The position numbers and the translations under genes are program-made. This document shows positions 8,991 through 63,974 of a DNA stretch of 64,000 nucleotides, in pieces. Below the pieces are notes generated by a model. The model saw nothing but the letters and a program-made list of their open reading frames with translations. It was not told where the DNA came from and made no database searches. Positions within the stretch are counted from its first letter, which is position 1, and each line of letters starts with the position of its first letter. The stretch is from Chrysophaeum taylorii (lineage: Eukaryota > Sar > Pelagophyceae > Pelagomonadales > Pelagomonadaceae), in NCBI GenBank assembly GCA_029834535.1, contig JAQMWT010000375.1:1-64000 (forward strand). The letters run 5' to 3'.

Positions 8991-9965
8991 CAAAATTTTC
9001 ATCAAAACAACATCAATCGAGGTGTGGATGACGGGACCAGTGGCGCGTTGAAGCAATATGCGATATCCAGGGCCTGCAGAGGGATACCCAATGAAGATAC
9101 CGGTTATAGCTTTGGTAGGCCATTTGTCGCCAGTAAGAATTGCAGCAGGACAGCCCCAAACACGAAGAAAATCAACACGGGGGAGAGTTTCATGTAGCAT
9201 TTCAGATGGCGTCATATATCCAGGATTAGAGGCATTTGGCATGCGCTCAGAGATGAAGTCAGCCGTTTCCATGGCCCAACGCCAAAAATCAGGTGGACGG
9301 TGCGCATGTACCAAAAGAGTACGAGTAATATCAGCAGTTGCGCGATGAGAGCGTTCCACAACACCAGAAAAAGCGTGCGCCTGTGAAGTTTTGGACTGAG
9401 CTGCAGGAGCACGTTTGAGAGCGATGTTGTTGCCCAGACAGAAGGTTTCGAATTGGCCCATAAGAGAGCGGTCACGATCGGTGTGTATGAGGGCAATGCG
9501 ATATCCGAATGGGCGAACCACGGTAGACAGAAAAAGTTCGAGTTGACGAGCGTTCGTAAGTGCATCGTGTCGTGGAGCAAAGTAACGTGTGCGGTGGCGC
9601 GTATGATCATCGACAAACGTGAGGACCGCTCGGTCTTGATAAAGGAAGGATGGGACGCCTGCAAACATGAGATCGGCGTGGATAATAAGGTAGGGCGCAA
9701 CGGCACGTGGACGAGACAAAGGCTCGGAGGCAGGAAGCGAAGTGGAAGCGGAAGCATGTGCTTTACGTTGGCCAACATGCGCAGCATGCATTTTACCTAG
9801 AGCACAAGCAGGACAAAAAGAAGAGACACGGAACTCGGGAAAAGCGGGGCGCCAACAGCGAGAGAAGACAAACGTCGGATATAAGAGGGACTGTAGTGAC
9901 CAAGACGAGCATGCCAAAGGTCGAAGGTAAGTTGAGTGCGTTGAGACACAGCGGGAAACGCACAA
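8990..9965 (-). mobile_element. Copia integrase core (fossil)
   Basis: Minus-strand translation shows an integrase zinc-site remnant (FCPACALGKMHAAHVG), the catalytic-core blocks HADLMFAGVPSF, FVDDHTRH and ALIHTDRDRSLMGQFETFC, the segment GVVERSHRATADITRTLL, and the downstream copia block DFLRVWGCPAAI followed by GIFIGYPSAGPGYRI. It belongs to the right-hand copia copy. Part of a broken element. Confidence 0.85.
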
Positions 9966-11683: not shown

Positions 11684-12321
11684 GTCCCGCGTACTTATCT
11701 CCGCCCGTCAGGCACATCCCTCATACCCCACAAACCCACCCACATCCTTCATGCTCCCCACACACACCCCCCTCTTAGCAGTCGACATTTAAAGACAAAC
11801 ATACGTACTTATCTCCGCCCGTCAGGCACATCCCTCATACCCCACAAACCCACCCACATCCTTCATGCCCCACCCACACCCCCCTCTTAGCAGTCGACAT
11901 TTAAAGACAAACATACGTCCGGCGGCAGCATGCGTACGACCTACGGGCGGGGCCCGTCCTCTCTTCGCCTGCCCCACGCCTCGGCGATGACCCCGACTAG
12001 GTCCCGCGTACTTATCTCCGCCCGTCAGGCACATCCCTCATACCCCACAAACCCACCCACATCCTTCATGCCCCACCCACACCCCCCTCTTAGCAGTCGA
12101 CATTTAAAGACAAACATACGTCCGGCGGCAGCATGCGTACGACCTACGGGCGGGGCCCGTCCTCTCTTCGCCTGCCCCACGCCTCGGCGATGACCCCGAC
12201 TAGGTCCCGCGTACTTATCTCCGCCCGTCAGGCACATCCCTCATACCCCACAAGCCCACCCACATCCTTCATGCTCCCCACACACACACTCTCTCTTAGC
12301 AGTCGACATTTAAAGACAAAA
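11599..12321 (+). repeat. 203-bp tandem array built from the nuclease ORF 3' end
   Basis: The unit starts CGTCCGGCGGCAGCATGCG, covers the last 25 or so codons of the nuclease-like ORF, its TAG stop and a C-rich flank (CCCACCCACATCCTTCATGC), and ends GTCGACATTTAAAGACAAAC. Full units start at 11,599, 11,916 and 12,119; an extra partial unit of about 112 bp begins at 11,804. Units are nearly identical, so the expansion is recent. Confidence 0.9.
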
Positions 12322-13740: not shown

Positions 13741-13999
13741 TAGGGTCGGATAAGAAAGTTCGTACGAGCCGTTAACTATGTTTCAGTTTGTACGAAGACA
13801 TACTCAACGGATCGCTGAGCTATGTTCATTTGTACTCAAGCAGTATGTGCCGCCACGCCGCGAGATCGTCGCGATGGAACTAGTCCCCATAGTGAAGTCG
13901 GCATCCTTTCGTCCCCTCACGCAAAAAAAGGGAAAAGCCCACGCGTTGTAGGACCCGTCGTTGCGGCGCGGGCTAGTCTCGTTTTCTTATCCGACCCTA
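13741..13999. mobile_element. MITE-like inverted-repeat element next to the Nup155 start
   Basis: TAGGGTCGGATAAGAAA at 13,741-13,757 is repeated as its exact complement at 13,983-13,999. The enclosed 259 bp have no coding capacity. The right end lies 7 bp before the ATG of the Nup155 gene, so the element occupies the whole proximal promoter/5' leader. No clear target duplication is visible, so the class is not set. Confidence 0.55.
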
Positions 14000-14005
14000 G
14001 AATGG

Positions 14006-17000: not shown

Positions 17001-18406
17001 ACCACTGGGAGCTCGGCCTCTACCGCGGCGGCGGCGGCGGCGGCGGCGCGGGCTCGAAGAAGAAGAAGAAGAAGAAGAAGGCGCGGGACGCGTGCTACGC
17101 GATCGCCGCGGACGTGGCGCGCGCCGCGCCGCACCCCGCGGTCCTCAAAGCAGCGCTCTCGCCAACAGCAGCCCCCGAGTGGTTCGCGTCGCAGATCGTC
17201 CGCGATACCTTGGACCGCGACGAGCGGGCGCTCCTCGAGGTTAGGCTCTCGACGTCGCTCGCGAAACTCCTCGAGCGCCAAGCCCCGCAGGTCCTCTGGC
17301 GCCACCATCTCCACTGGCGCCGCGACGCAGAAGCGAGCTCCTTGATGGAACGCCTCGCGACTGCTCCGGATTTGTCGCTGGATGTGCGAATCGGGTACCT
17401 CGTGCGAGCCGTCGAGGCCGCCCGGAGAGCTGGCCTGGACGACGAGTCGCGTCGACTCGAGGAAGCTCTCGAACTCGCGCGCCTTCAGCACCGGTGCGCC
17501 CTGGCGACCTTAGATCTCGCCAGAAAGGCCACGTCTTCTTCCACCTCCTCCTCCGAAGGAGGAGGAGGCGCAACCAAGCAGGAGCTCCAGGCGGCGCACG
17601 CGACGCTCTCCTCCTCGTTGTTGCCCGTCTCGGAACTCTACAACGATTTCGCCTCGAAATTCGACCATTGGGACGTGTGTTTGGCGGTCATGCACGCGAC
17701 CAACCAGGGCGACGCCAAGTACGCCGAGCTGCTGTGGCGATCGATCCTGAGAAGGGCGGTGCCCCTAAGATCTCGCGACGAGGAAACCCGCGCCAAGCTC
17801 AAAGATCCGGCCTGGTGGTCGGACGACGACGTCATGGACGACGCGTTAGCCCACCTCAGATCGCCTCCTACCGGATTCTTCGAGGACGGCGACTGGATCC
17901 CGCCCCTCGTCCACCTCGTCTCGCGCCTCACCGCTGATTTGGGCGCCCGCTCCCTCGATGCCCGCGGCGACGCCCGTTTCTCCCTCGCCCTTCCCCTCGC
18001 CCCGATCGTCGCTCTCCTCCACAAACTCGGCGCCGAGCACTCCAGATTCTCCTCGGAACTCGCGATCCCCTCCTGGGTCCTCGCGGCCATCTCTCCCGTC
18101 CCGCGCGTCTACCAGTTTCTGGCTTTGCGCGACATTTATCGCCACAAAGCCGAAGACATGTTCGAGAAGTTTCTCGCCCTCAAAGCCGCGGCCGATCTCC
18201 TCGACTCCTGGTCCCGCGACGTCGCGAACGCCCCGTCCGAACGACCCCTCTTCGCGGCCGCCGAACGCCGCGGCGCCAGGCCCCAAGACATCCTCGCAGT
18301 CCTCGATTCCGACTTCGACCAACCCCAACGCTCCCCCGACCTCGTCCAACTCAAACACTCCCTCCACCTCACCATTACCCGCGTAGACCAAATCTTCCGA
18401 CGTTAA
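14006..18406 (+). CDS. NUP155: Nucleoporin Nup155/Nup170 homologue
   Basis: 1,466-residue intronless frame. Nup155 is a large scaffold subunit of the inner ring of the nuclear pore complex. The N-terminal half has the beta-propeller of this family: an early ISGLS-like LSGPPTCACS segment, then FFGGNDGLVHEFDY, GDWFFEKDPVLRLAVDDVRG and LYALSDGGTLDAYAL, the segment where family members read 'D-R-LYT-SE-G-L-YDL', followed by VVSPFHSSLLHAVCVDESGT. The C-terminal half, from about residue 750, is an alpha-solenoid (YNDFASKFDHWDVCLAVMHA and WSRDVANAPSERPLFAAAER). Low-complexity inserts (acidic near residues 35-70, poly-Ala, poly-Gln, poly-Gly then poly-Lys near 1,015) lie between helices. Length is close to the 1,390 or so of animals. 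ATG at 14,006 is the first in-frame ATG. TAATAAATAAATAAATAA at the stop may serve as the polyadenylation signal. Confidence 0.85.
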   Translation: MADHHCAEEKGLLSSSSSSDSWKKGRAMLVQQRGEEEDEEDEEDEEEERGRRRREEDEEKEDLSEWEAVKFEVSAERFELFEELEAPKTEVVASVLANTKNAAWPAMVAQEGRRQGFGKCGLLPEMECAWVGLGKTLVVWDYGRQDLAAYEGLSGPPTCACSAPAKSRVFEDVVSRVVAVATETELRLLALAYRKDGSTLELLPTEFVAPVDPRVELRAAVAAADGRVFFGGNDGLVHEFDYATRESWPARLTRLVFAKEGGRFLGYEGFRPPKMARRGDSRARRVVAAAFGDWFFEKDPVLRLAVDDVRGCLYALSDGGTLDAYALKDLKHVGRSSVVEAARRWCERRAQHELAAPYKPAKIVDLGVVSPFHSSLLHAVCVDESGTRYYYTTARERDLYWREAPPNLLATLSLVFVRALQDPLRIALAWESYGLAVMPARVDDDADKLFCCAHDAGVFFEGTNHHKVLGIAETSAPCKLRTLMLLSSSCSSRGVVSGLANEVPVPKKSAAAGLAGQRERKPLLARFLAAAAAAAAAREEEEEEVVVAPSSSSKKTVVSANGGAPLLLPEEMEEQLDATPVPEVAAQYLFGARRVAILTRAGVEEYARIWPIDQLRDLLDRGADVGWFAKRYGELETCCMALGIVVLRAPGDDQALKALALAKFKEIGTKATFTQQQQQQWFFGQPAPTIAFAPSTQYRALRLLVSRLARPVWSKPMVWSEGGRAVFLLEPSELAQIRIPVLELRALLKRDELFADATANDVLELERTYASQNVVVSWDKASAAARNAESARRETRETHKLYRFVSRLANALSLLDILRRARDAEDDGGSDQGGAVDARLKILCPVSLADLACSRDTHEKVVSCLRALTVPRWLDKRGTGYEWPEPLAAALGEACSSYFNSADATAQHGAARLRRAKELDSRQRWDEARAERLLARDFYLKAAAQWRSPNDAETALPVACDALLDANFAPAAVEVAVACARNFEEGDSSSYDALHSEQHHWELGLYRGGGGGGGAGSKKKKKKKKARDACYAIAADVARAAPHPAVLKAALSPTAAPEWFASQIVRDTLDRDERALLEVRLSTSLAKLLERQAPQVLWRHHLHWRRDAEASSLMERLATAPDLSLDVRIGYLVRAVEAARRAGLDDESRRLEEALELARLQHRCALATLDLARKATSSSTSSSEGGGGATKQELQAAHATLSSSLLPVSELYNDFASKFDHWDVCLAVMHATNQGDAKYAELLWRSILRRAVPLRSRDEETRAKLKDPAWWSDDDVMDDALAHLRSPPTGFFEDGDWIPPLVHLVSRLTADLGARSLDARGDARFSLALPLAPIVALLHKLGAEHSRFSSELAIPSWVLAAISPVPRVYQFLALRDIYRHKAEDMFEKFLALKAAADLLDSWSRDVANAPSERPLFAAAERRGARPQDILAVLDSDFDQPQRSPDLVQLKHSLHLTITRVDQIFRR

Positions 18407-37796: not shown

Positions 37797-37946
37797 TTAT
37801 TAAATATTATGCAAGCCACAAAACAACCATCAAATCCATTTCATTTTTACATCACTGGTAGAGAACCGAAACGTAAAGTGGGCCAAATAAGCTGCCCTTA
37901 CTATTCGGCCAACTTTCACTTTGGTAATCCGGTAGAGAACGGGTCT

Positions 37947-38282
37947 TGTGGCGGCAACTCCCGCCTCCTAAGGCCTACCCCTCTTCTAGGGCCCCCCCTC
38001 ATCAGGGGCACCCTACTCCGTTCCGATGATGTCAGAGTTTTCTCTGACATCATCTTCCTTTTCCGTGACATGTGTCACCCTGATTTCTGATTTCGATTAT
38101 CCTTGATCATAAAGCAACAGCCGATCCTCAAGTTGAGAGGACCAGGCGCAGGAGTTGTTTGTGGTCGCGTGGCGGGAGAATGGCCATCCTCGTCCAGTGA
38201 TCCCACTAAGGGCACGGACGCGATCGGCGAGCCAGGATTCGAAGGCACGCCAGGTAGCCCCCAAAATTCTCCTTACGCCACA
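37947..38282 (+). repeat. 5' LTR of the gypsy element
   Basis: 336 bp, TGTGGCGGCAAC to TTACGCCACA. Contains a perfect 13-bp stem GATGATGTCAGAG/CTCTGACATCATC around TTTT (38,025-38,054) and a C-rich foldback GCCCC...GGGGC just upstream. Such an LTR hairpin could act in 3' processing or RNA packaging; this is inference. Confidence 0.92.
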
Positions 38283-38687
38283 GGTGGTGGAGGAATACGA
38301 GATTCGAGCGACTATATCGGTCGCAACGAACTAGTGCATCTTGCATTCTCTACACGGTCCGGACAAGCCGTGCGCGCCCTGATCAAGCGCGCCGACAAGG
38401 AATTCCAGAAGGACCATTGCCGTGGGAAAGTTCCCCGGCCGGATACGTTTGTCGTCGGAAGTGACGACGCGCGATTTGGTGCTAACCGACGCGCAACCCG
38501 GGTACCGCTGCCGCAGGCGAGCGGAGTGAGATCGCAACTCACGGATAAGGCATTGTTTGCCGGGCAGAGACGAGTTCTGCCGCCCACCGTACGGATAGAT
38601 TTGTCGGTGGAAGACGCACGCAACGACGATATTACGCGTGTCGTGGACGATTAGAAGTTCCGGAGCCGAAGGAGCACGAGAACGACG

Positions 38688-40310
38688 ATGACTCAATTAT
38701 TTTGGACCCGTTCTGATCTCGGCCGACTAGAACGAGCCAGAGCCGATACGGAAGACGATGATGCTGCCGTCGAGCAGCTACGATATGAAGAACCGCCAAG
38801 CCGTCAGGATGAGACGAACGAGCGGAATGATGATGATGATGATGATGACGATGAAGAAGAGCACGATACAGAAGTTGACGAGGAAGAAGAGCTAAACTAC
38901 AACTACAAGCCCACGGAGAGACCGGCGGGAGGACGATCGACAGCTCCGTCAACGCGTGCAGAACCCCCGGATGCAACGAAAATGAATGAGTTCTACGAAG
39001 CTCACTTGCGGGCATTACGCGAAGAGAACGAACGCGCGCAAGAACGACTTTTAAAACAAATGGGGGAAGAGAACGAACGAAAAGAACGGCTACACCGGAA
39101 GGAGATAAAAATAATGCGAGAGCAACTGCATATGGCCAATGCTCGAGCAGACGCCCTCCAAGATCAAGCAAGCGCGTTGACACGGGAAATAGATGAATTG
39201 CGTATGCCGAATCGCCCGAGGCGAGCGAACGGTCTCGAGGGAGAATTCCGAACTTCGAAGGTACCGCCGCCCACGCGAACGCGAGCGAAAGTCAGGAAGC
39301 CGCGCGACGACGACGACGAGTCGTCCGAGATGACCGAAACGTCGTTAAACTACGATCAAGAGCAATCCAAGTTGAAGGAGCTCACCCAAACCAAAATCCC
39401 CACAGAATCGAAGAATTTGACCGAAACGTCGTTAAACTACGGGTCGAAGCCGTCTACCGCTTCTAACCCGGTGTCACCGTTGGTGGCACGATATGATTTG
39501 TCGTCAGCTGACACAACCCTCGGTCTTGACGACGCGCCGGAGTTATGTGTGAATCCGATTTACGAGCCCCGTGCAGCCGATGACGCCCAAAGTAAAGGAC
39601 CCTCCGCTGCTACGCTCGATGCTATGAGTTTACCTCCGAACATTCAAGTGGATGGCACGTCGCCTCCACGATCGATCGACGATGCGTCGCAGAGGATTAC
39701 CTCGAATGATAAGCGCGCACCTGAGTACACACCCGTCGAACGTCACGTGCCCTTTGGTGGCCAGTTTTTGACAGATATGACGTCGGGGACGACGCCTTCT
39801 TCTTTTGCAGCCCCCCCCGACGAACCGACTGCAGACGTTTTTGCAGATGTTTTATTCCCTTTGACGATGGCAGACAATTCGTGTGCCGACATTTTTAGTG
39901 ACGAGGCGATTGCCGATATTCGAAGCGATGGAGTGGATGAGAGGCCGAGTGAAACGGCCGAGAAAATGAATACGAAAGCGGAAGAGATGAAGAATCTTAT
40001 AACGCATGAACTGCCTTTGGAGCTCAGTGAAAGCCCTGGCGTATTACTCACGAACGAAGAGTTCAAAGATTTTCAGCCTGCATATGATGATGGCTACGTG
40101 ATAAAGAAAGATCCCGAACATACTATGAGGGATGAGTATAGCTGCCGCCCGGAACCGAATTTGGATGGGACGATCAGCATGGATAATAGGAAGATGAGCG
40201 TACCGACGATAAGGATACGAGCTCAATGTTTCCTGAAGAAGAAACCGCCAGAGCGGAAAGAAGTACAATTCCGACCCCGAGGCACGGGTTATTGGCCAAC
40301 CGAGATTTAA
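38688..40310 (+). CDS. Gypsy element ORF in Gag position, acidic
   Basis: 540-residue frame from ATG. It has an acidic DE-rich N-terminus, a coiled-coil-like stretch around residues 85-175 (NERAQERLLKQMGEENERKE), two copies of MTETSLNY, and later the block LTDMTSGTTPSSFAAPP and FLKKKPPERKEVQFRP. It sits where Gag is expected, but I recognise no capsid or zinc knuckle. Related blocks recur in the next ORF. Confidence 0.6.
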   Translation: MTQLFWTRSDLGRLERARADTEDDDAAVEQLRYEEPPSRQDETNERNDDDDDDDDEEEHDTEVDEEEELNYNYKPTERPAGGRSTAPSTRAEPPDATKMNEFYEAHLRALREENERAQERLLKQMGEENERKERLHRKEIKIMREQLHMANARADALQDQASALTREIDELRMPNRPRRANGLEGEFRTSKVPPPTRTRAKVRKPRDDDDESSEMTETSLNYDQEQSKLKELTQTKIPTESKNLTETSLNYGSKPSTASNPVSPLVARYDLSSADTTLGLDDAPELCVNPIYEPRAADDAQSKGPSAATLDAMSLPPNIQVDGTSPPRSIDDASQRITSNDKRAPEYTPVERHVPFGGQFLTDMTSGTTPSSFAAPPDEPTADVFADVLFPLTMADNSCADIFSDEAIADIRSDGVDERPSETAEKMNTKAEEMKNLITHELPLELSESPGVLLTNEEFKDFQPAYDDGYVIKKDPEHTMRDEYSCRPEPNLDGTISMDNRKMSVPTIRIRAQCFLKKKPPERKEVQFRPRGTGYWPTEI

Positions 40311-40317
40311 TTTACGT

Positions 40318-41886
40318 TTGGTCGGAGGTTTGGCAAAAGACGACGAAGGCGTCGATGTTTGGATAGACGAGACGATTGAGCCAGTTCGGATAGACTTGGG
40401 AGCACCAGTCGCCTACAGGGACGATCCAGAGGTACTAGGACCTGCCGAACTGACGCCAGAGAGAGACAAAGATAACAAGAGCCCCAGTCGAAGTTCGCGC
40501 CGGCACAGACGACGACGATCGCGCGACGACGAATACGACGGAGGCCGACACCAATATAATTCGAGTTTTTCGAGCGCAACGCTCGCATTTACGACCCCTT
40601 GCGGTCAACAGTTACCATTAGGAGTGACGGTGTACCCGAACACGTACACCCGCACCGACGACGCAGCCGACGCCCTTGCCGCGGCCGCATTCGAAGATCT
40701 TGCTCGCCCACCGATGGACGAGCCACCCAACGACGTGTTGACCAATCGTCGGTCTTTGGCAAAGATTTATGAGCAGATGTCGAGCGATGAGCTCGAAGAT
40801 TCGAGCGAGGAACTTGAAGCTACACGATACTGGGAAGGCGATTCAGATTCGGAAGATGAAGAAGCTACACTCTGTGAACCAGTGTCTGCGTTAACGTTAT
40901 TTGACGAGTCGTCCATGGACGACCCACCGTTTATTTTTGATGCGGAAGCCCTCGATGCCATCGGCTTATCTTTGGACCCTCCAGAGACGACCGCTGGCGA
41001 CCGAACTGGCTGTGAGCCAGACATGAATTTCTGCAGTGATAGCTCGTGCGCGCATTCGACTGAAGAGACGATGACCAGCGCGAGTATTGCAGACGACGAT
41101 TTTATGACAGAGTTGACGTCGGGGACGACGCCATCTTTTCCTGCGGACCCCCCCGAAACGGTTTCGATTACTACGGATCGAGACACGGATACGCCGCCGG
41201 AAGAAAAGGATAGATTTATGAAGAAGATTTGCAGCGTTCTCGAGTGTGACGAAGACGATCAGACGTGGAACCTGCAGGATTGGTGGACGAAAGCTCAGAA
41301 TTTCTTGCTGAAGAAGCCACCAGAACAACCGCGCAGCTGCAGACTCAAAGCCGCAGCTGACACGGAACCGATCGCTGATGCTGATGAGGATCAGCAGGCG
41401 ACGAATGAATTTACAGATGCATTCTGGAAAGACGAAATGAATGAGTTATGGGAGGGGTCCTTTGCTTCCGTGAACTACGAAGACCAGGATCCCCTACCAG
41501 CACGGATTCCCTCTGAGATTGTCTTGGAGGAAGAGCGAAAGCCGCCAGATAAAGAGGCTTCCGCGAGCATTATGGCGAAGACGCCAACAACAGATAATAC
41601 GAAAGCTCAAGCCGCGGTATCGATGCCCAACCCCGGAGATGAGCGATTCAGAGCCCGATGTGCTCACACTTCGTTGACGCCGCGAGATGGCAAGACGATC
41701 GAAGATGATTTGATTACCCTCAGTTGCTTAGATACGGGTACTTTAACGTTTATAGCCTGTCACATCTACAGGAATCGTGACGGACCGAAATTCTCGACGA
41801 CCATTGGTGTCGATGGAATGGCAGATGTTTCTTATTTTGCCGAGAAATGGTCAAAAGTTGACCAGAGATCAGTTGATTTTCGATGA
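40318..41886 (+). CDS. Gypsy element second acidic ORF
   Basis: Open frame of about 520 codons directly after the first. It repeats two blocks seen there: MTELTSGTTPSFPADPP and FLLKKPPEQPRS. The C-terminal end has LSCLDTGTLTF, in which DTG could be a retropepsin active-site triplet, the only protease hint in the element. Highly acidic throughout. Role unknown. Confidence 0.5.
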   Translation: MVGGLAKDDEGVDVWIDETIEPVRIDLGAPVAYRDDPEVLGPAELTPERDKDNKSPSRSSRRHRRRRSRDDEYDGGRHQYNSSFSSATLAFTTPCGQQLPLGVTVYPNTYTRTDDAADALAAAAFEDLARPPMDEPPNDVLTNRRSLAKIYEQMSSDELEDSSEELEATRYWEGDSDSEDEEATLCEPVSALTLFDESSMDDPPFIFDAEALDAIGLSLDPPETTAGDRTGCEPDMNFCSDSSCAHSTEETMTSASIADDDFMTELTSGTTPSFPADPPETVSITTDRDTDTPPEEKDRFMKKICSVLECDEDDQTWNLQDWWTKAQNFLLKKPPEQPRSCRLKAAADTEPIADADEDQQATNEFTDAFWKDEMNELWEGSFASVNYEDQDPLPARIPSEIVLEEERKPPDKEASASIMAKTPTTDNTKAQAAVSMPNPGDERFRARCAHTSLTPRDGKTIEDDLITLSCLDTGTLTFIACHIYRNRDGPKFSTTIGVDGMADVSYFAEKWSKVDQRSVDFR

Positions 41887-42950
41887 AGGCGAACTTCCGA
41901 TTAAGCGCAAGCTGTACGGATCAGGATTGAATACGACGACGATCCATCGTTGGATCGCCCTTCGGGTCGCTTTCGCCGATGACTTTGCCGCTCCCATTGT
42001 TGCTATTGTAGCCGATACGAATTATCTGTTCCTGTTGGGAGGGCGCGATATACGAGTTTTAGGAGCATGTGGATTTTCCCCATGATCGGATCTGTTTTTG
42101 TCGAACCCAAGTCGTCTACGGGCGCAAGAAGATTAAAGTTAAGGATGAACGAGTCGATGCACCAATCGTGACCTTCCGGTCTATTTACGATCGAAATCCG
42201 ATAACCGTACCGATTTACAATCATCAACACGATGCCTTCGGCAGAGTCTCGACCTGGTCAAGACTCGAGTTTATGCTCGTTTGAGCACGATTAAAGATCT
42301 CCGAAGCCCGCCGCCGGAACGTACGGTAGCCATGGCTACACGGGGACATGCTACGACCAAATTCTCCCCAGCTCCGGGAGAAGACGCGCGCGAAGTAATC
42401 GCTTATGCCGCGCGCACGATTCAAATCGAGCCCGGTCGAACGTACAATCTACCGGTTATTTTGTCGAAGCCTATGGAAAAAGGACAGTCGCTACGTTTGC
42501 TGAGAACGAGCAGTTGGGAGTTGTCGAAGGTGTGTTCTTCTTGCGAAGAGCGCGACCGGTCCGCTGCTCGGGTGGCAGTTACTGCCACGGAAGAAGTGCC
42601 GACGATCGTCACTCAAGGCGAAGCCCTTGCGATTGGTGATATCGTTAGGTACGAAGATGAGTTGAACGTCTCTACGATCAACGAACTTACGAAAGAATGT
42701 GAAGAAGGATACGACAAGGGGAACCTTTCTTTCACCGTTTCTGTCGCTAGTCATTTGACGCGATGCGACGAATCTCCCCCGCCGATGCTGCTGAGCACGG
42801 TGCAGAAGGACGCTATGACCGCTATGACGGACAAGTCCACCCTCAAACGACCTGAAGGCAGCGACGATTTCGCTCGAAGGTCAGAAAAAGATGAAAAGAA
42901 ATGCCGCGAGATCACCGAAGCGGAGATCCGCCGCCGATATGAAAAGGTGA

Positions 42951-43685
42951 ATGGCCAATCACTTATCGCAAGGTGGTGATGCTGTTCAGTGGAGCCGGAG
43001 GCAGTACTTTAGGTCTCCAACGGGCCAACGAAATGTGTGGAACGTCGTTTCGAGTCGTGCTAGCACTCGATGCGTCGGACACCGCCAACAAGATCCACCA
43101 CAAGAACTTTCCGAATATTCCTGTGGTGCAGCACACATTGTGTGGTCGCTATGTTACAACCTTACGGTTGATCGAATCTTATTTACCCTACGCGGAATGG
43201 TCGTCGTCGATGTGTGTCGCGTCGCCACCCTGCGTACACTCCGCTCTGTGCAACTTGACTTCCAGAGATGTTGGGAAGGAGTTACCGCTACCCACTGGAC
43301 GATGAAATTATGCAAGATGGCTGGTTTCTTCATGTGGTTGATAGAGCAGGAGGCTTCGATTATTTCTTACGTTGCACGTTTGCACCCGTACGTATACGTC
43401 GTCAATTTTTACGACATAACTCCCAGTTTGATGAGCTGTCGCGTGCGATTGTTGGTTTCCAGCCATCCGCTCCATTTGCGCGCAGTTCCAAAGACTTGCA
43501 AGAATATGCAGCAAGTTCGCCGGAGCACTTGGTTACGCCGACGAACGACATTTTCAGATGAACAATTTAGGATCATCACGAGCCGCGACAGACGCAGCTT
43601 ATACTGTTACGCGTGTCCCGCTTCGCGTAGGACCGCACCGTTCCGATTACAGATCTCTGAATCTGGAAATGACTTCGGTTGCTGA
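42951..43685 (+). pseudogene. C5 cytosine DNA methyltransferase-like module in the gypsy element
   Basis: C5-methyltransferases transfer a methyl group from S-adenosylmethionine to cytosine in DNA. Visible family blocks: motif I MLFSGAGGSTLGL (SAM-binding FxGxGG), motif II-like LALDASDTANKIHHKNFP, motif IV ASPPC with the PPC catalytic Cys, an ENV-like MWLIEQEAS (motif VI position) and a motif VIII-like NFYDITPSLMSCRVRLLVSS. The blocks are in the right order and roughly the right spacing. They are not all in one open frame, so this copy is broken. From memory, methyltransferases captured by LTR retrotransposons are known in a few eukaryotes (dinoflagellate Symbiodinium, charophyte Klebsormidium). 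It lies between the acidic ORFs and the reverse transcriptase. Confidence 0.65.
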
Positions 43686-44383
43686 CGATGCCCCTGATTT
43701 TGAGTGGGCCGGCTTCTCCAGGACGACCTCGTTGAAACACGTCCGTCGTGCCACCTGACACGATGGCCTTATGCTCGATCTGCACAACTCTGTGACCAAG
43801 GAATTTCACCTGAGCGGCGAAGCTTTGCCGTCAGCGTTGAATCCTGCAGACCGACCGTTTGATTATTTACAAATTGATGAAACCACCCTTAGTCACGTAC
43901 AAGTTCCGCTGTTAAACACGCGCACGTGTCATAAGATGGTGTCGACTGATGATCTTCAAGATCGCACCAAATGGAAACCTCCAGATGTACCGTTGATTCC
44001 GCCTGCAACAGATGAGCCGGGGACGTCTCATGCTTCTTCTGCTGGCCCCCCCGACAACCAAATTTAGACGTTCCGCCAGATCCTGAGCGAGATCGGGAAC
44101 CGAAGATTAAGAGCGAGCCGAGTGTTCGTGTCAAAGGCGAGAGGATCAACAAAAGCCACCCGGAAGTGAAACTAAAATACGAGAAAAAGTTCGATGTGCC
44201 ATGGAAAGATGCGCCGCGCGATGTCGAGGTGCACCACTGCCGCAGACTCCTGAGCATGTCAAGGACAACGAAGCGATGAAAGTTAAATTCCTACGAAGGA
44301 AGAAGTTGACAAGGTTGTGCAGGAGTTGGGAATTCCTGACAATCCGCACTTAGATGACGAGGCGAAACTGATGCTCCGTCATT

Positions 44384-46787
44384 GTGCAATATTCTTGGGC
44401 CTTTTTCGACCCGATTATGAGACCTGTGGACTCGCCTCCTGTGTCTCTACGATTCAAAGACGCGAATCCGCGACCGATTAAGATGACGCCCTACCGATTG
44501 ACGCCTGCGAAGCTCGATTGTCTCCGCAAGCAGATCAGCGAGTGGTGCCGGGATGGAGTCATTCGTCCGGCCAACTCACCTTGGGGCTTTCCTGTGTTGA
44601 TGCTTCCGAAGAGGAGCTGAGATTGGAACGTCAAACGCGTTCCGTGCTGCAGTTGACTTACGTCAGCTCAACGATCAATTGGTCAATGACAGTTGGCCAA
44701 ACATTCGACAAGATGATGCTTTAGCCTTTCTCGCGATGAGACGATGGCGGACATGCATTGATATTAGGTGGGGATACCACAACCTTCGTTTGGATCCGGC
44801 AGCGCAGGACGCTGTCACGATGGTTAGCCCACTTGGCGCTCACAGTTTCTTGCGATTACCTCTAGGTGTGAAGACAGCCGGAGCTCTTTTCTGCAAGCAA
44901 ATGGCGAGCGACCTTTCGAAATGGATGTATCAAGACTTGGTTGCGTTTGTTGACGATATTATGATGGGATCCGACGATCTTCATCGACATTTACAAGTTT
45001 TGATCGAAGTGATGTGTCATTTAGCACAGAGAGGGTACAACGGTCGAACCGCGAAGTTCCACCTTCTCAAAGATGATATAGAATTTCTGGGACACATTTC
45101 TACCCCAGAAGGCCTGAAGCCGAATCCGAAGACGCTGGAAGCACTGCAGAAGATGCCGATTCCAGGTACTTTACCGAATACTTCCCCGAAGACCCAGATA
45201 CGCTCTTTCATCGGCATGAGTAATTACTGCCGGCGATATGTGAAGGGCTACTCGAAGATTGTGGAACCGTTGAGACGATTATGCCTCGAAGGTGTAAAGT
45301 TCGAGTGGACGCCCGAGTGTCAGAAAGCTTGGGATACGATTATTGAAGCTTTGGTTGATTCCCGAGGAGTCTACCACGCCGATTATGATCTGCCTTTTCA
45401 GATCCGATCCGATGCTTCCAAGGATGGACTTGGAGCATATCTCTTCCAAATTGTCGAAGTCAAGGACGATGCCGGAAGAGTGACTCGAGAAGAACGAGTA
45501 ATTGAATACTGGAGCCGAGCTGTGCCGAAGGAGATGCGAAATTATGAGCCCCGTCGGCTAGAGCTGCTGGCAGTTATACTTTCTCTAGAGCACTTTCGAG
45601 CCTACATCGAAGGGCACCGGACTGTTTTGGAGACCGATCACCGAAATTTGACGTTTTTACGTAAGGCGACGCACTCGTCTGGGCAGCTTGCTCGTTGGGC
45701 GATGCGCCTCGCCAATTTTGACCCTGAACTTGGTTACAAGCCGGGAAAGTCACCGGGAATGAGTATCCCTGACTGTCTCTCCCACAATCCGATAGATCAT
45801 GTCATCGAGACTGACGAGTTTGGAGAACCTTTGAACCACGCGTATTTAGTGTTCCAAGAGCTTCCCCGACCTGTTGATGACCGAGGAGTTCCCGTCTCCG
45901 GCTGCCACTTCATAATGTCGTTTATTACGACCGAACTGCCGGAAGACGAGGAAAAAGATCCTGAAATGGATCCGACGAAATTGGCTACGTCTCACGCTAC
46001 GAGACAACGTCGGAAGAACCGTGCGCGCGATGAGCCACAGATCTTCAAGGACGCAGCCGCATACAAAGATTATATCGATAAGATACCCGATAATGCTTAT
46101 AATGCTGATCATGTTGATGTTGAATACAAGGAGGGATCGCACGTTTTGCTCTACATCCCTTTCCTTCAGAACAAACTTCGACCGGAATGGCGAGGGCCGT
46201 TTATTATCAAGGAACGCCTCTCCCCGGTCACCTATAGGATTGAGTCTCTCGACTCTCCGCCCGAAGAACGACGTGTTCATGTAAGTCAGATCACGCCTGT
46301 GATGGTACCTCCGATCGTTGATCAAACCATCCGCAAACCCGAAGAAACCTTCCGTGATGATTATCAGCACGGTAAGTTTGTTGTTTTCCGGATTCCTGAC
46401 CGGAAGCGCTCTGATTGGCGCAAGAAGATTTATGTTGCTGAAGTTTACGAGCCTTACGATTACCAAAATGATCGTGTTGCTCTACATTTCTATTCCGATT
46501 TGGGTCCGAACGATGATGTCGCTTATTTCAAGCCGACCTCTCGTCTTTCGCTCCGCAAGCTCAAGCCCGAATTCAAGGACGCTGAAGGTCGAAGTTTCAC
46601 CGACAAGTCCCGAATTTCCTCCAACACAACTCCTTGTGTCACGGATTTCGCTCCGCACGAGATTGACGTGTTGGTCCCCAAGTTTACTTTACGCAGTGGT
46701 CGGGTTCCTGAACCGATCATCACCCGCGTTTACCAGAAGATTCGTTCACGAGATGCTCGTAAGGCGAAGCCGCGCTCCTCGCGCTAG
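44384..46787 (+). mobile_element. Gypsy reverse transcriptase, RNase H and integrase tail
   Basis: Gypsy blocks: PYRLTPAKLDCLRKQISEWC, VIRPANSPWGFPVLMLPK, FCKQMASDLSKWMYQDLVAF then VDDIMMGSDDL (FVDD box), GHISTPEGLKPNPKTLEAL, and MSNYCRRYVKGYSKIVEPLR. The RNase H part has FQIRSDASKDGLGAYLFQ, YEPRRLELLAVILSLEHFRA and LETDHRNLTFL. The distal part resembles the integrase C-terminal GPY/F region (HVLLYIPFLQNKLRPEWRGP, RRVHVSQITPV) and runs on into a basic tail (PRSSR). Order RT-RNase H before the integrase tail is the Ty3/gypsy arrangement. Confidence 0.88.
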
Positions 46788-46827
46788 CACCTCGCTGGGG
46801 CAGCTCGAATTCTTACCAGGGGAGTCC

Positions 46828-47163
46828 TGTGGCGGCAACTCCCGCCTCCTAAGGCCTACCCCTCTTCTAGGGCCCCCCCTCATCAGGGGCACCCTACTCC
46901 GTTCCGATGATGTCAGAGTTTTCTCTGACATCATCTTCCTTTTCCGTGACATGTGTCACCCTGATTTCTGATTTCGATTATCCTTGATCATAAAGCAACA
47001 GCCGATCCTCAAGTTGAGAGGACCAGGCGCAGGAGTTGTTTGTGGTCGCGTGGCGGGAGAATGGCCATCCTCGTCCAGTGATCCCACTAAGGGCACGGAC
47101 GCGATCGGCGAGCCAGGATTCGAAGGCACGCCAGGTAGCCCCCAAAATTCTCCTTACGCCACA
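46828..47163 (+). repeat. 3' LTR of the gypsy element
   Basis: 336 bp; I see no difference from the 5' LTR by eye. Preceded by a short purine-rich CCAGGGGAG at the polypurine-tract position. The 13-bp hairpin recurs at 46,906-46,935. Followed by the duplicated target GGTCT. Confidence 0.92.
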
Positions 47164-47202
47164 GGTCTTAAGCAAATTTTGCAACTTTGGTGGAGAATTA
47201 GT

Positions 47203-48387: not shown

Positions 48388-49020
48388 TGTCCACCGATTT
48401 AGGGTAAGGCTTAGGTAGGCGCGCGAGCCAGACAGGCATTGATCCTCCAAGCCGTCTACGGCGACCTCGCAGACTGTTTCCACGACCCGCGGCGGCTCTT
48501 TCAGCGCGCCATTCTCACGCCCCGTCGAAACGATGTTGTCGATGCTGACAACGCGCGCATGACCGCGGCCTTTTTTTCCCGGAGACGAGGCGTCGGAGTT
48601 CTTTTCGGCCGACTAGGTTGGGTCGGAAGACGACGCCTCGCTCTCAAGAGTCGAGTTTTGAACTCCCTGACAACCAACGGCATGCTGACTTTGATCGCGA
48701 GCTTAAAGTCTTCGCAACCTCGACCCGTCGCACGGCCACTGCAACGGTACCAGATACATGATCGATCGTGTCATTGTCACCGAGGCTCCTCCAACCTGTA
48801 TCCCTTAAGGCCCGCCGACGCCAAACGATCACCAAGAGCCAGGGCCAGACGCCCCGCGAGGTCGGCGTCCTCTTGGCGAAGCCCGTCTTCTGCCACGTCC
48901 AGCTCGACGTGGCTCTCCGTCGATCGGCAACCCCGAGGATATCCTCTTCTTGGTCGACGACTCCACCCTACTCCACACGTGCTCCGCAATACCGATAAGC
49001 CCCCTCCCGGCGTCTACGCG
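48388..49020 (+). pseudogene. Helicase C-terminal fragment, copy 3
   Basis: Opens at CCACCGATTTAGGGTAAGG. It reads ILQAVYGDLADCFHDPRRLF and QRAILTPRRNDVVDADNARM, then in another frame QTITKSQGQTPREVGVLLAK and PVFCHVQLDVALRRSAT. The frame changes are shared with the other copies. Not functional. Confidence 0.78.
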
Positions 49021-49024
49021 CGCA

Positions 49025-49370
49025 CTGTAGGTGAACTTACTGGGACCAGGTGAACTTACTGGGGTTTGAGATTGGGACTAGGTGAATATAGTGACCAGGT
49101 GAACTTACTGGGACCAGGTGAACTTACTGGGGTTTTTAAAGTAAACTCAAAGGTTAGCGGCGTGTGCGGATAAAAGCAGCTTAGATTGGCGGAGGCGAGA
49201 GCGACGAGCTCGAAGGAGTGGTGTGAGCACGAGTGGGTTTACGCCGAACTTACTGGGGTTAGAGATTTGGACTAGGTGAACTTAACTGACCAGGTGAACT
49301 TACTGGGACCAGGTGAACTTACTGGGGTTAGAGATTGGGACTAGGTGAACTTACTGGCCTGCACTTGTTT
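49025..49370 (+). repeat. GTGAACTTACTGG minisatellite, copy 3
   Basis: Same array as at 13.13 kb, including the internal segment AGTAAACTCAAAGGTTAGCG and GGCGTGTGCGGATAAAAGCAGC. It ends CTTACTGGCCTGCACTTG and runs straight into the next helicase fragment. Confidence 0.85.
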
Positions 49371-49382
49371 GTCTTCAAATGT

Positions 49383-50030
49383 CCACCGATGCAGGGTAAG
49401 GATCAGGTAGGCCAACGAGCCAGACATTGATCCTCCAAGCCGTCTACGGCGACCTCACAGACTATTTCCACGACCCGTGGCGGCTCTTTCAGCGCGCCAT
49501 TCTCACGCCCCGTCGAAACAATGTTGTCGATGCTGACAACGCGCGCATGACCGCGGCCTTTTTTTCCCGGAAACGAGGCGTCGGAGTTCTTTTCGGCCGA
49601 CTAGGTTGGGTCGTAAGACGGCGCCTCGCTCTTTACAGTCGAGTTGTCAACTCCCTGACAATCAACAGCATGCTGACTTTGAGCGCGAGCTTAAGGTCTT
49701 CGCAACCTCGACCCGTCGCACGGCCACTGCAACGGTACCCGATACATCATCAATCGTGTCGTGTCTCCGAAGCTCCCTCCCACCAAATTTGTATCCCTTA
49801 AGCCCCGCCTACGCCTAACGATCAACAAGAGCCAGGGGTAGACGCCCCGCAAAGTTGGCGTCCTCTTGCCCAAGCCCGTCTTCTGCCACTTCCAGCTCTA
49901 AGTGGCTCTCTGTCGAGTCGGCGAGTCGGCAACCCCGAGGATATCCTCTTCTGGGTCGACGACTCCACCCTACCCCACACGTGCTGCGCAATACCGATAA
50001 GCCCCCTCCCGGCGTCTACACGCGCACTGT
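49383..50030 (+). pseudogene. Helicase C-terminal fragment, copy 4
   Basis: Direct tandem neighbour of copy 3, opening at CCACCGATGCAGGGTAAGG. It reads ILQAVYGDLTDYFHDPWRLF and QRAILTPRRNNVVDADNARM. More diverged than copies 3 and 5 (for example an insertion CTCCCACCAAATTT near 49,778). Non-functional. Confidence 0.78.
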
Positions 50031-50031
50031 A

Positions 50032-50240
50032 GGTGAACTTACTGGGACCAGGTGAACTTACCGGGGTTTGAGATTGGGACTAGGTGAACTTAGTGACCAG
50101 GTGACCTTACTGCTAGTAATACTGGGACACTGGGACCAGGTGAACTTACTGGGGTTTTAAGAGTAAACTCAAAGCTTAGCGGCGTGTGCGGATCAAAGCA
50201 GCTTAGATTGGGGGGGGTGAGAGCGTCGAGCTGAAAGCGA
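50032..50240 (+). repeat. GTGAACTTACTGG minisatellite, copy 4
   Basis: Shorter array of the same unit after helicase copy 4, ending near AGCGTCGAGCTGAAAGCGAG. Confidence 0.8.
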
Positions 50241-60649: not shown

Positions 60650-63409
60650 TCAATCCTGTAAAGGATTGTCATGAGAGGCATGATGCATACCGAGTAGAGA
60701 ACGAAAAGTGGAGAACTCAGGAGCAAGTGGTTTTGTAAAGCCATCCGCCACGTTCAGCTTGCCGGGAACATGATGAACTCGTATTTTCTGTAGTGAGATA
60801 TACTCACGGATTTTAAACCATCTGGTCGACAGTGCCTTGGATCGAGAAGACCCATCTGGGTTATTAGAGGTGTGAACAGTAGCAGCATTGTCAGACAAAA
60901 GAGGTAGGCTTCTGATGAAGCGCATATCTTCAGCAATTGGGTTGTCATTGTCATCGAAGTCGACAGGGTCAGCGGTGTTCTCACCATTAGCATTGTTGAC
61001 GTAGAAGGTGGGGTTGACGACAAAGGAGAGTTCCAACAGCAGCTTGCGTAGCCAGATAGCTTCATCAGCACAAATACTGAGGGCAATCAACTCAGCTTCG
61101 TGAGTTGAGCAGGAGACAATCGGTTGAAGTTTGCTTTTCCAACCAATAAGGCAGTTGAAAAGATAGAAGACAAACCCGGTGGTAGATTTCCTATCTTCCT
61201 GTGCTAAGGAAGGGGCATTGTCAGCGTCAACCATGGCAACTAAGGGGTCAAACTGTCCAGTAGATACATCCTGTGGTTGGTAGTCGACCACAGTGGATAG
61301 ATCAATTCGATTAGCGGAGACAGTGCGAAGGTGAGCTTCAATGGCATTACCTTTAGGGTGAAACCAGAGGCGAAGTGAGCGGTTTTCCGGCTTCTTGAGG
61401 TAGCGAAGCAAATGCTCTAGCATTTGGACGTGAACATACGTAGGTGCATGCATACCACGCGAACATCTGCCCAAGGCTTGCGAGAAGTCAGGTCTGCAGG
61501 CAACTTGCATGAACACCAGCTTGCCAAGGAGGGTGGCAAAGTGCGAATTGATGTACAACTCTGTTTCAGAGCTGGGAGTGCCATCTTTATACTTGAAGGA
61601 CGATGACATAGGATATTTAAGCGGGGTCAGTTGCTGCAAGACTGGGTGATCAGCGAAGAGTTCATCCAGCTTGGCTTGCACATCCAGAGAAATGGAGCCG
61701 TCAGATGTGCGACACACACACATGCCTAGGAGGGTATGGACAGGTTCAAACTGCTCTACAGCATACCGTTTGTGGAGGGCATCCTGTAATTCGGCACGAA
61801 GAGGGTTGTCATTGGACACAATAACAATGTCGTCTACAGACAGACTGCATACGACGAACTTAGCATGTGCGGATACTCGAGCACATAGGCAAGAGTCCGA
61901 ATGCAGGCGTTTGTAGCCAAGGCTACGGAAGAAGCCGTCTATCTCTTTGTTCCAAAGGGATGGTGGTTGCCTAAGTCCATAAAGTGACTTCAGCAGTTTC
62001 GGTAGACGTCGGCCCTTGTACTTAGCGTCATCGGGGTCGATAAGCTTGATGCCGTCTGGTAATTGAACATAGACATTGGCATCGATGTCAGACTGAACGA
62101 AGGCGTTCGGGACGTCTGCATGGTAGACAGGCAATTGCTTGTATGCTGCAATAGCTAGTAGTACCCGGATTGCGGTCATGGTGGCCATGGGGCTGAAGGT
62201 ACCAAAGAAATCGGCGCCAAGCGATGCTAGGAAGCCACGTAGTACGAGGCGAGCCTTGTGCTTAACGTATTTGCCTGCAGAGTCTGTTTTGATCTTCAGC
62301 ACCATCTTGCTGTCAATAGGACGAGAGACACCGTCGGGTAAGGAAAGTTTGAAGCAGCCAAAGCGGATAATGTCGTGGAGTTCCTTGGCGATGGCCTTGA
62401 GGTAGGCGTGCCTGTTTTCAGGCGACAAACCGTGGAGGCACTTAAGTTTATATTCGTCAATGGAAACGTCCGCTTCTTGGACCTTATATTCGTCAGGACC
62501 AACAGTGGCTGGTGAATTATAGTTTAGCGACGTTGCGGTCGAGGCAGTGTGCGCAACTTCGGGATAAGCGGAAACAGCGTCAGTAGGAGTAGTAGGGGCA
62601 GATTCCAGTTGGATATGGATAGTAGGGTCGGTACGTAAGACCTGGGTGATAAACTCTGTAGAGACCAGAAGGTATTCCTCCAAGTCAGCCAGAGATGCAG
62701 AAGTAGCGCCAAACTCGGATGAGTTGTGATCAATAAAGCTGGTCGGCGCCAGGTACGTAAGTGCATATTGTAAGGAAGAAGTGCCGAAGGCAGCAGCGTG
62801 TTCAGTGAACGCAGATAAAAGGGGCTGAGGAATAGGGCACGCAGGTGAACCATCAGCAGTTAAATAGGTTGCAGCTGGGATGCTAGATGCGCACTTGGCG
62901 TGGGCGAAGTAACAATCGACGTGCGGGTAGCGGGCAAGTAAGTCAGTGCGCAACGGGAGAAGAAGACGAGCTAACAACGCATGTTCCCCCTCTGAGCAGA
63001 TAGCAGACCAGAGGATACCACCACGGAGATGAAGGGCGGAGAGGGCGGGAGACTTGAACGTAAGAAAGTGGTGGCGAAGATCCCAGCAGAAATCGGCGAG
63101 CTTGCCACCAGCGGCTTTGTAAGCACCAATAGTAGACGCTTGTAACCGGGCTCGGATAGTTTTCATAGAAGTGGCCTTGCGAGTGTTAGGCTGTTTGGAA
63201 CCTGGGACAAGAATGAGGTCATCTTGTGCAAAAAGGTCTTTGTAAGAAGGAAGCAAGGGCGGCGGTGACATAGAGCCAGATTCGTCGGCGATAGCGTCAG
63301 TCAGAAGAGGGAGAAGAGGCCGGAGTAGGGGACGAAGAAGGAGGAGCTGAAGGAGGTGGGGAGTGCCCCCTCTGAGGATGAGGAGTCCTTGTCCCCCTCT
63401 GAATGACAT
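60650..63409 (-). CDS. Copia polyprotein part: reverse transcriptase and RNase H
   Basis: 919-codon frame. Copia blocks: HAYLKAIAKELHDIIRFGCF, KHKARLVLRGFLASLGADFF, GTFSPMATMTAIRVLLAIAA, VYHADVPNAFVQSDIDANVY, LPKLLKSLYGLRQPPSLWNK, CSLSVDDIVIVSND (the YVDD-type box), LLGKLVFMQVACRPDFSQAL, then RNase H/junction blocks DADNAPSLAQEDRKSTTGFV, CSTHEAELIALSICADEAIW, LLSDNAATVHTSNN and KIRVHHVPGKLNVADGFTKP. It looks intact in the window. Confidence 0.92.
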   Translation of the reverse strand: MSFRGGQGLLILRGGTPHLLQLLLLRPLLRPLLPLLTDAIADESGSMSPPPLLPSYKDLFAQDDLILVPGSKQPNTRKATSMKTIRARLQASTIGAYKAAGGKLADFCWDLRHHFLTFKSPALSALHLRGGILWSAICSEGEHALLARLLLPLRTDLLARYPHVDCYFAHAKCASSIPAATYLTADGSPACPIPQPLLSAFTEHAAAFGTSSLQYALTYLAPTSFIDHNSSEFGATSASLADLEEYLLVSTEFITQVLRTDPTIHIQLESAPTTPTDAVSAYPEVAHTASTATSLNYNSPATVGPDEYKVQEADVSIDEYKLKCLHGLSPENRHAYLKAIAKELHDIIRFGCFKLSLPDGVSRPIDSKMVLKIKTDSAGKYVKHKARLVLRGFLASLGADFFGTFSPMATMTAIRVLLAIAAYKQLPVYHADVPNAFVQSDIDANVYVQLPDGIKLIDPDDAKYKGRRLPKLLKSLYGLRQPPSLWNKEIDGFFRSLGYKRLHSDSCLCARVSAHAKFVVCSLSVDDIVIVSNDNPLRAELQDALHKRYAVEQFEPVHTLLGMCVCRTSDGSISLDVQAKLDELFADHPVLQQLTPLKYPMSSSFKYKDGTPSSETELYINSHFATLLGKLVFMQVACRPDFSQALGRCSRGMHAPTYVHVQMLEHLLRYLKKPENRSLRLWFHPKGNAIEAHLRTVSANRIDLSTVVDYQPQDVSTGQFDPLVAMVDADNAPSLAQEDRKSTTGFVFYLFNCLIGWKSKLQPIVSCSTHEAELIALSICADEAIWLRKLLLELSFVVNPTFYVNNANGENTADPVDFDDNDNPIAEDMRFIRSLPLLSDNAATVHTSNNPDGSSRSKALSTRWFKIREYISLQKIRVHHVPGKLNVADGFTKPLAPEFSTFRSLLGMHHASHDNPLQD

Positions 63410-63974
63410 GGTCTTGCATAGTGGTGTGGGGTGTGAGCGAGAAAGGCGCGGAAGGAGCGTGTGGCGGAGGAGCTAGTTCAGGATCAGGAGTAGGATGCTG
63501 CAACATGTAGAGGAATTGCAGCTTGGACGAAACACGAATTTGTCCGTTTTCAGGGTTGAGGACGACGTCAGCGAGATGGTCGACGCGTGGGGAGACGAGC
63601 GGGTTTTGCGCGTTGGCGCAACAGAGATACAGATATTTGCGGCGGCACGGTTCCCACTTGTGGTGTTCATGGGGCTCCAATAGGAGGTAACATTCAGCGC
63701 CAAAAATCTTGAGCATATCGTGTTGGGGAGTGCTGAGTTGGTTGTAGAGTAGCTGTTGCGGACTCAGAATAGCATGATGAATGCGCTCGAGCGTGGCGTT
63801 CGGGAGAAGGTTATAGCTTTGAACGGTGTGTATCACCGCCCATGGGAACATGATAGCGGGTTCCACGATCTTGGCGCCACGATAGTGAGCATTAAGGAGA
63901 GAACGAAGGCGAGTTGAGGAGGCGGAGGCGATGAAACCGATGGCAGACTCAACTTCAAAGTTAAAGTGGTGCAT
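63297..63974 (-). mobile_element. Copia integrase, C-terminal part
   Basis: Minus-strand frame with MHHFNFEVESAIGFIASASS, a distal core remnant, YNQLSTPQHDMLKIFGAECY and EPCRRKYLYLCCANAQNPLV, matching the region between the integrase core and RT in copia elements (the 'R-FG-AY/P-K...R-K-G' block). Ends in a Pro/Ser-rich linker. The catalytic core lies beyond the window edge. Confidence 0.7.

Follow-up and report, generated by a model that had tools for sequence, protein, structure and literature searches.

The locus described here raises the question of why an LTR retrotransposon of the pelagophyte Chrysophaeum taylorii should encode a C5 cytosine methyltransferase and on what such an enzyme would act. 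Retrotransposons bearing DNA methyltransferases (DNMTs) have been described as SymbioLINE, SymbioDIRS, and KnitGypsy in dinoflagellates and one charophyte, and de novo CG methylation has been reported for retrotransposon DNMTs (PMC5890265). An earlier note on this DNA called the capture of DNMTs by LTR retrotransposons rare, a description that is fair, although these three elements show that such capture is not unprecedented. The same source reports the Copia elements of Symbiodinium as devoid of a DNMT (PMC5890265). Elsewhere, DNMT3 members are assigned to 'LTR Copia and DIRS' elements (PMC12344493), a wording in which 'Copia' perhaps stands for Gypsy, and methylase-bearing Gypsy and DIRS elements are mentioned, in general terms only, for stramenopiles (PMC6338049). 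The excerpts available from PMC9998398, PMC6338049, and PMC3145265 contain no pelagophyte case, and titles and abstracts of the open-licence literature yielded no report of DNMT-bearing retrotransposons in Chrysophaeum or other pelagophytes. The genome paper describes 71 Mbp in 702 contigs, obtained from short and long reads, and the words 'transpos' and 'repeat' are absent from its main text (PMC10366177). The assembly searched here comprises 70.8 Mb in 697 contigs; the window, that is, the whole stretch of DNA analysed, covers 64,000 nucleotides of contig C375.

Structure of the Gypsy element

The window copy is a Ty3/Gypsy LTR retrotransposon with a total length of 9,217 bp (37947-47163). 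Its 5′ LTR (37947..38282) and 3′ LTR (46828..47163), both on the plus strand and bounded by TG...CA, are identical at 336/336 bases and are enclosed by the 5-bp target-site duplication GGTCT (37942..37946 on the left, 47164..47168 on the right), in agreement with the note's reading of a Gypsy element of about 9.2 kb with matching LTRs. The internal parts, likewise on the plus strand, follow one another in the order gag-like acidic ORFs, protease-like motifs, spacer, methyltransferase module, reverse transcriptase (RT), RNase H, and integrase C-terminus. An acidic ORF in the gag-like region (38655..40310), for which no Pfam family scored above cut-off, is followed by a second acidic ORF (40237..41886) containing a protease-like LDTGT motif (41728-41742) and by an LLGGRDI block (42032..42052) with likeness to a C-terminal protease motif; we take both to be protease motifs, the protease being assigned by motif only. 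A spacer ORF without a Pfam match (42149..42979) leads from these motifs to the methyltransferase. The region downstream of the module (44601..46787) matches the Pfam families RVT_1 (3.6e-12), RT_RNaseH (5.1e-26), and Integrase_p58_C (3.8e-6), corresponding to RT, RNase H, and the integrase C-terminal domain. A copy on contig C5 has 1,020 bp, occupied by Integrase_H2C2 and rve, that the window copy lacks at the junction 46094..46095; this loss of the zinc-binding and core part of the integrase and a module split over several frames bear out the claim that the window copy is broken. LTRs, a target-site duplication, and the protease-RT-RNase H-integrase order typical of Ty3/Gypsy elements are all present, the integrase core being found in the contig C5 copy and lacking in the window copy. 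In the contig C5 copy, the module lies within an open frame of 3,067 codons, and gag through integrase can therefore form a single polyprotein.

Several further features were observed. A primer-binding-site-like sequence, GGTGGTGGAGGAATACGAGATTCGAG, stands after the 5′ LTR (window 38283 onward). A 56-bp repeat (84%; window 39765-39820 and 41101-41156) places TSGTTPSSFAAPPDE-like peptides in both acidic ORFs, and a similar peptide stands after the methyltransferase; these peptides are possibly processing sites or linkers. Elsewhere in the window, a large nucleoporin host gene with Nucleoporin_N and Nucleoporin_C domains is located at 13952-18403 (+). A 203-bp tandem repeat with CGACATTTAAAGACA occupies 11804-12320 (2.5 copies, 97%) and recurs in inverted form near 48.1-48.4 kb, and a sequence of about 1 kb with short AGGTGAACTTACTGGG repeats inside occurs twice in direct orientation at 48423-50237 (88-96% in pieces).

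The methyltransferase module

In the window copy, the module extends over 42949-43995 on the plus strand and is divided into at least three frame pieces. Piece 1 (42943..43305) holds motif I (LFSGAGG, 42982-43002), a motif II-like block (43060-43080), and motif IV with its PPC (ASPPC, 43219-43233), motifs I and IV both being in its frame. Piece 2 (43275..43514), in another frame, contains a VI-like IEQEASI (43341-43361) and a VIII-like CRVRLL (43437-43454), and piece 3 (43462..43995), which has further breaks, contains a IX-like RSLNLEM (43651-43671) and an X-like block (43729-43740). Compared with an open copy by tblastn, the window sequence matches at 97% (42949-43278), 99% (piece 2), and 74% (piece 3); some of the frame breaks could be assembly errors. 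The ORF at 42951-43685, to which motifs I-IV had been assigned, does not carry them: it has no PF00145 match and runs in another frame until about 43275, and only from there on does it follow the frame of the module with its VI- and VIII-like blocks.

The piece at 42943-43305 matches the methyltransferase family PF00145 with E 6.8e-5 and 22.9 bits, barely above the curated cut-off of 22 bits, as well as two PHROG DNA-methyltransferase models with E 9.5e-8 and 3.7e-7. Two open window-type copies score 20.9 and 21.9 bits and fall under the cut-off of 22, and scores of 34.9 and 36.8 bits are reached by two sister-subfamily copies, each of which matches in two stretches, the better ones covering profile positions 260-321 and 257-321. 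Since other copies have an open module and the sisters score this high, the match is not attributable to chance, and the location given for a C5-methyltransferase module, after the acidic ORFs and before the RT, holds. In profile comparisons with hhalign, the Gypsy module aligns with 22 Dnmt2 proteins across motifs I-IV (E 1.1e-10), and the subfamilies combined align with known C5 methyltransferases from motif I to motif X (E 1.1e-9, 267 columns) under a lenient setting (-mact 0.05). For the window-type C-terminal half, the local hhalign score was reached by 10/100 shuffles, and the -glob mode was uninformative. AlphaFold runs on two window fragments without an alignment gave pLDDT values of 41 and 52.

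Among 50 fetched window-type and A2 copies, 31 have a module whose frame stays open over 345 codons starting at motif I, a proportion that is not a population rate, 20 of the 50 having been picked partly for long frames and divergence. FSGAGG is present in 28/31 of the open copies, ASPPC in 30/31, and IEQE in 28/31, and the motif-IV cysteine is invariant in the 23/23 open copies that were aligned. The multiple alignment further reveals a conserved EQE at the place of motif VI, instead of ENV, and an R-[VT]-R-L-L (RVRLL or RTRLL) at the place of motif VIII, shortened with respect to QxRxR. An alternative assignment of VNF as motif VI, which would have meant loss of the catalytic glutamate, was rejected since the alignment places IEQE there, 38 residues past the motif-IV cysteine. 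The statistical signal is uneven along the module. For motifs IV-VIII, the real score was reached by 97 and 46 of 300 shuffles of the window-type and A2 sequences and by 26 to 124 of 200 shuffles of five subfamily sequences; for motifs IX-X, it was reached by 0/200 shuffles in four of the five subfamily sequences and by 5/200 in the window type. The sequence thus supports motifs I, IV, IX, and X, with EQE and R-[VT]-R-L-L as likely equivalents of motifs VI and VIII. Of the motif calls made in the earlier note, I and IV are upheld, and those of VI and VIII are only plausible, given that EQE and RVRLL do not beat shuffles.

The replacement of ENV by EQE and the weak signal between motifs VI and VIII would be compatible with a module that has lost catalysis and is retained in the polyprotein for binding SAM or nucleic acid. 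This interpretation appears improbable in view of the conservation of motif I, the PPC cysteine, and R-x-R-L-L in sisters at about 41% identity, single decayed copies such as L119 excepted. It is also at odds with the putative catalytic glutamate, which follows the motif-IV cysteine at 38 residues, the same spacing as in the SPR phage enzyme, and with the retention of IEQE in nearly all open copies.

Copy number, age, and selection

Counts of 36-mers across the genome, with up to three mismatches allowed and reversed control patterns giving 0, yielded 190 motif-IV sites, the window site included, and 197 RT sites, these numbers being site totals rather than adjacent pairs. At least 150 scored matches, distributed over many contigs, came from a search with the module, and two of these lie within open frames exceeding 3,000 codons. 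The module is found well beyond the window copy, and neither of the two outcomes named in the note as refuting its reading, lack of a significant family match and absence of the module from all other copies, has come about. To these, a survey of sister loci can be added, in which 1.3-kb stretches at the expected place were inspected for 14 of 150 listed Gypsy RNase H loci, chosen for having no methyltransferase at that distance among the module matches listed (at least 150). The module was detected in 11/14 and in part in one more; it was not found within the 1.3-kb stretches of the other two. Eight of the 11 new loci belong to the A2 subfamily and three to a third subfamily, whose module is about 41% identical to that of the window copy. 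With the third-subfamily module as query, at least 142 matches were obtained, 135 of 854 candidates being scored and matches being listed down to 56% identity. Decayed copies occur as well, with PPR in place of PPC in L119 and PPS in L041.

Dating was confined to five insertions with matching target-site duplications, namely, the window copy and four of seven assumed LTR pairs. Their LTRs differ at 0 (window), 4 (C514), 0 (C477), 2 (C126), and 0 (C565) of about 336 sites. The Gypsy-DNMT family has been active recently, and the note's claim of an active family is supported in this sense of recent activity. The other three assumed pairs (two on contig C5 and one on C24, with 0, 4, and 4 mismatches) were excluded from dating since their outer flanks do not match, and the LTR partners on C30 and C310 lie beyond the contig ends. 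On contig C5 (520043-554379; L088-L091), two near-complete Gypsy-DNMT copies are arranged in tandem; the outermost LTRs share AGGAG on their outward sides and the inner flanks mismatch, as if a single insertion had been duplicated or recombined.

Between the A1 and A2 subfamilies, dN/dS of the module amounts to 0.063-0.072 at dS 1.56-1.74 (five pairs). A single pair of copies gave 0.029 at dS 1.87 for linker-RT and 0.072 at dS 1.62 for RNase H-integrase; in a third stretch, dS was saturated. The module is thus kept by purifying selection that equals in strength the selection acting on RNase H-integrase. Its synonymous distances resemble those of the polymerase, which suggests that module and polymerase have travelled together. 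Sister subfamilies show module dN/dS values of 0.11-0.18 (four pairs). Within the window type, pooled pN/pS is 0.24 (28 copies) and single close pairs range from 0.14 to 0.42; such values are to be expected when decaying copies are counted in.

These data also bear on the view that the module is a passenger sequence, a pseudogene, or an assembly artefact without any role. Failure of 19/50 fetched copies in the open-module test and the broken frame of the window copy would fit such a view, to which hardly any credence can be given since dN/dS remains near 0.07 over a nearly saturated synonymous distance. It is contradicted, moreover, by the number of motif-IV sites, the distribution of copies over many contigs, and the two open frames mentioned above.

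A second methyltransferase in a Ty1/Copia family

A second METHYLTRANSFERASE, a Ty1/Copia family, carries a different C5 methyltransferase between protease-like and integrase regions. The element on contig C96 (L063, L017, and L062; 60.5-70.5 kb) comprises a gag-like region, a protease-like DGGAS motif, the methyltransferase, an integrase core with a weak match (E 0.003), RVT_2 (E 3.6e-39), and an RNase H that looks Copia-like by eye, and it has short LTRs. A pattern for the PCQ motif of this module has 122 sites in the genome (control, 0). The real score for motifs IV-VIII was reached by 0/300 shuffles, motif I is contracted or degenerate, and dN/dS of the module is 0.095-0.232 (seven pairs). 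A PF00145 profile search of the genome returned at least 57 matches, including the host DNMT2, a DNMT5-like protein with SNF2, and the Copia family; the window's own module is absent among the matches listed. The Copia PCQ pattern, for its part, has no site on the window contig among 100 of the 122 sites listed. The module is apparently missing from many Copia elements: only one of the best 150 Copia RT hits (on C58) was seen by eye at the expected distance from a listed methyltransferase site, in a comparison that covered the best 150 of 1,670 candidates, C96 not among them, and 100/122 methyltransferase sites. Two more Copia reverse transcriptases (RVT_2) were observed in the window itself, at 7639-9009 (-) and 60650-63469 (-).

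The two modules differ in their affinities. The window-type Gypsy module aligns by hhalign with six Dnmt2 sequences at a score of 65.4 (E 1.7e-8, 77 columns) and with six phage enzymes at 35.8 (E 3.8e-4, 21 columns). For the Copia module, the order is reversed, with 73.1 against phage enzymes (E 1.6e-9, 213 columns) and 38.1 against Dnmt2. A direct profile-profile comparison of the Gypsy and Copia modules gave no significant match (E 0.08). Since the modules do not match each other and have opposite nearest profiles, two separate captures may be inferred. Among 5.8 billion protein sequences, 0 of 6,004 candidates for the open Gypsy piece and 0 of 3,600 for the Copia piece reached E <= 0.001, although length limits could hide relatives. 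Viral contigs gave 13 (Gypsy) and 10 (Copia) pattern matches, 0 of which were confirmed. In phages, the Gypsy module had no match at E 0.1, and the Copia module matched two records that belong to a single phage (vir335; tblastn E 4e-6); in plasmids, three weak matches to the Copia module were found (E 6e-3 to 3e-2).

RNA or DNA as substrate

The proximity to Dnmt2 raises the possibility that the Gypsy module is a Dnmt2-like RNA m5C methyltransferase whose target during reverse transcription would be the element's RNA or the primer tRNA. In addition to the scores of 65.4 against 35.8, two Dnmt2 proteins are the only C5 methyltransferases among the 16 solved-structure matches listed, at an E of 0.3 that is the level of unrelated chance hits, and no DNMT3 is among such matches up to E 10. 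The closeness to Dnmt2 is relative, however, to the profiles compared, i.e., Dnmt2, phage enzymes, and one DNMT5-like protein only. Furthermore, 22 Dnmt2 proteins share, with little or no variation, a CFT..Y....GTGS block in the target-recognition region for which the Gypsy modules have no equivalent, and no tRNA matching the primer-binding-site-like GGTGGTGGAGGAATACGAGATTCGAG was found with one exact pattern. An RNA substrate is, in our judgement, rather unlikely.

The mutational record offers a second line of evidence. The observed/expected ratio of CpG is 1.30 for the whole element, 0.77 for the LTR, and 1.19 for the rest of the window. In 30 Gypsy copies, singletons at CpG amount to 41/6,087 for C>T and 46/5,868 for G>A, compared with 90/12,250 and 90/12,221 elsewhere. 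The corresponding figures for 28 Copia loci are 24/2,151 and 30/2,848 at CpG and 83/8,379 and 54/4,904 elsewhere. No CpG deamination signature is thus seen in the coding region sampled, singleton C>T being no commoner at CpG, and no context clearly stands out (top observed/expected 1.6 with 27 events in Gypsy and 1.6 with 20 in Copia). Signals of this kind may be weakened by errors in the assembly, and the copies sampled are young. Given an element CpG of 1.30 and no CpG excess of C>T, heavy, mutagenic CpG methylation is not indicated, and the missing trace in the sampled copies is in keeping with an RNA substrate. The LTR value of 0.77 may reflect a methylated promoter region or chance in 336 bp.

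Possible roles in the element's life cycle

Based on the observed anatomy, copy number, purifying selection, and likeness of module and polymerase synonymous distances, the window element can be viewed as a damaged copy of a recently active Gypsy family whose polyprotein contains a divergent C5 methyltransferase that is packaged with the RT and methylates cytosines, an interpretation to which we give an even chance. According to this scheme, the domain would be made and packaged together with the RT inside a virus-like particle and would methylate cytosines, most likely in the new cDNA or the fresh insertion. Methylation could then serve as a self mark or bring about a chromatin state that spares both element and host, as has been proposed for SymbioDIRS-Dnmt3 (PMC5890265). 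That a second LTR superfamily carries a distinct C5 methyltransferase at the corresponding place speaks for a function in the life cycle of LTR elements.

A broader proposal would be that Gypsy and Copia elements independently captured C5 methyltransferases of different branches in one and the same position behind the protease, that both were kept by selection across deeply diverged subfamilies as a repeatable LTR adaptation, and that the Gypsy enzyme is an RNA m5C methyltransferase for genomic RNA or the primer tRNA; taken as a whole, this proposal is speculative and rather doubtful. A stramenopile with two apparent captures, hundreds of sites, and strong selection points to DNMT capture as a recurring strategy, and gene capture of the DNMT type seems to be more diverse than the small number of cases in the literature suggests. 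The oddity of an element that encodes the very mark that usually silences it becomes testable in a compact 71-Mb genome, where the enzyme's value to the element can be probed.

Comparison with known systems

The Gypsy module shares its genome with two other C5 methyltransferases. In contrast to the host DNMT2 (L001; 360 aa on contig C634, 100% identical to CTAYLR_008533), it lacks the CFT block, and it has no hhalign match to the host DNMT5-like protein with SNF2 (L002/L131; score 13.3). The closest profile found for the Copia module is that of phage and bacterial enzymes (PHROG 116 and 363; vir335), from which the module differs in being embedded in a Copia polyprotein and in its altered motif I.

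Among published retrotransposons, KnitGypsy-Dnmt3 of Klebsormidium nitens is similar in being a Gypsy element whose Pol polyprotein includes a cytosine methyltransferase and in showing purifying selection, with Ka/Ks below 0.2 (PMC5890265) as compared with 0.063-0.072 between subfamilies in Chrysophaeum. While KnitGypsy is reported to carry a Dnmt3-type enzyme in a charophyte (PMC5890265), the Chrysophaeum element resides in a stramenopile and its enzyme is nearest Dnmt2 among the few profiles compared. SymbioDIRS-Dnmt3 and SymbioLINE-Dnmt of Symbiodinium are likewise multicopy, with a DNMT under purifying selection and more than one element type per genome, and differ from the Chrysophaeum Gypsy by element class, being DIRS and LINE elements (PMC5890265). 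SymbioLINE is also reported to be CpG-depleted (PMC5890265), whereas the Chrysophaeum Gypsy is not depleted over its length, its LTR standing at 0.77. DNMT capture by retrotransposons is already known; what is new here is the host lineage, the enzyme branch, and a probable double capture.
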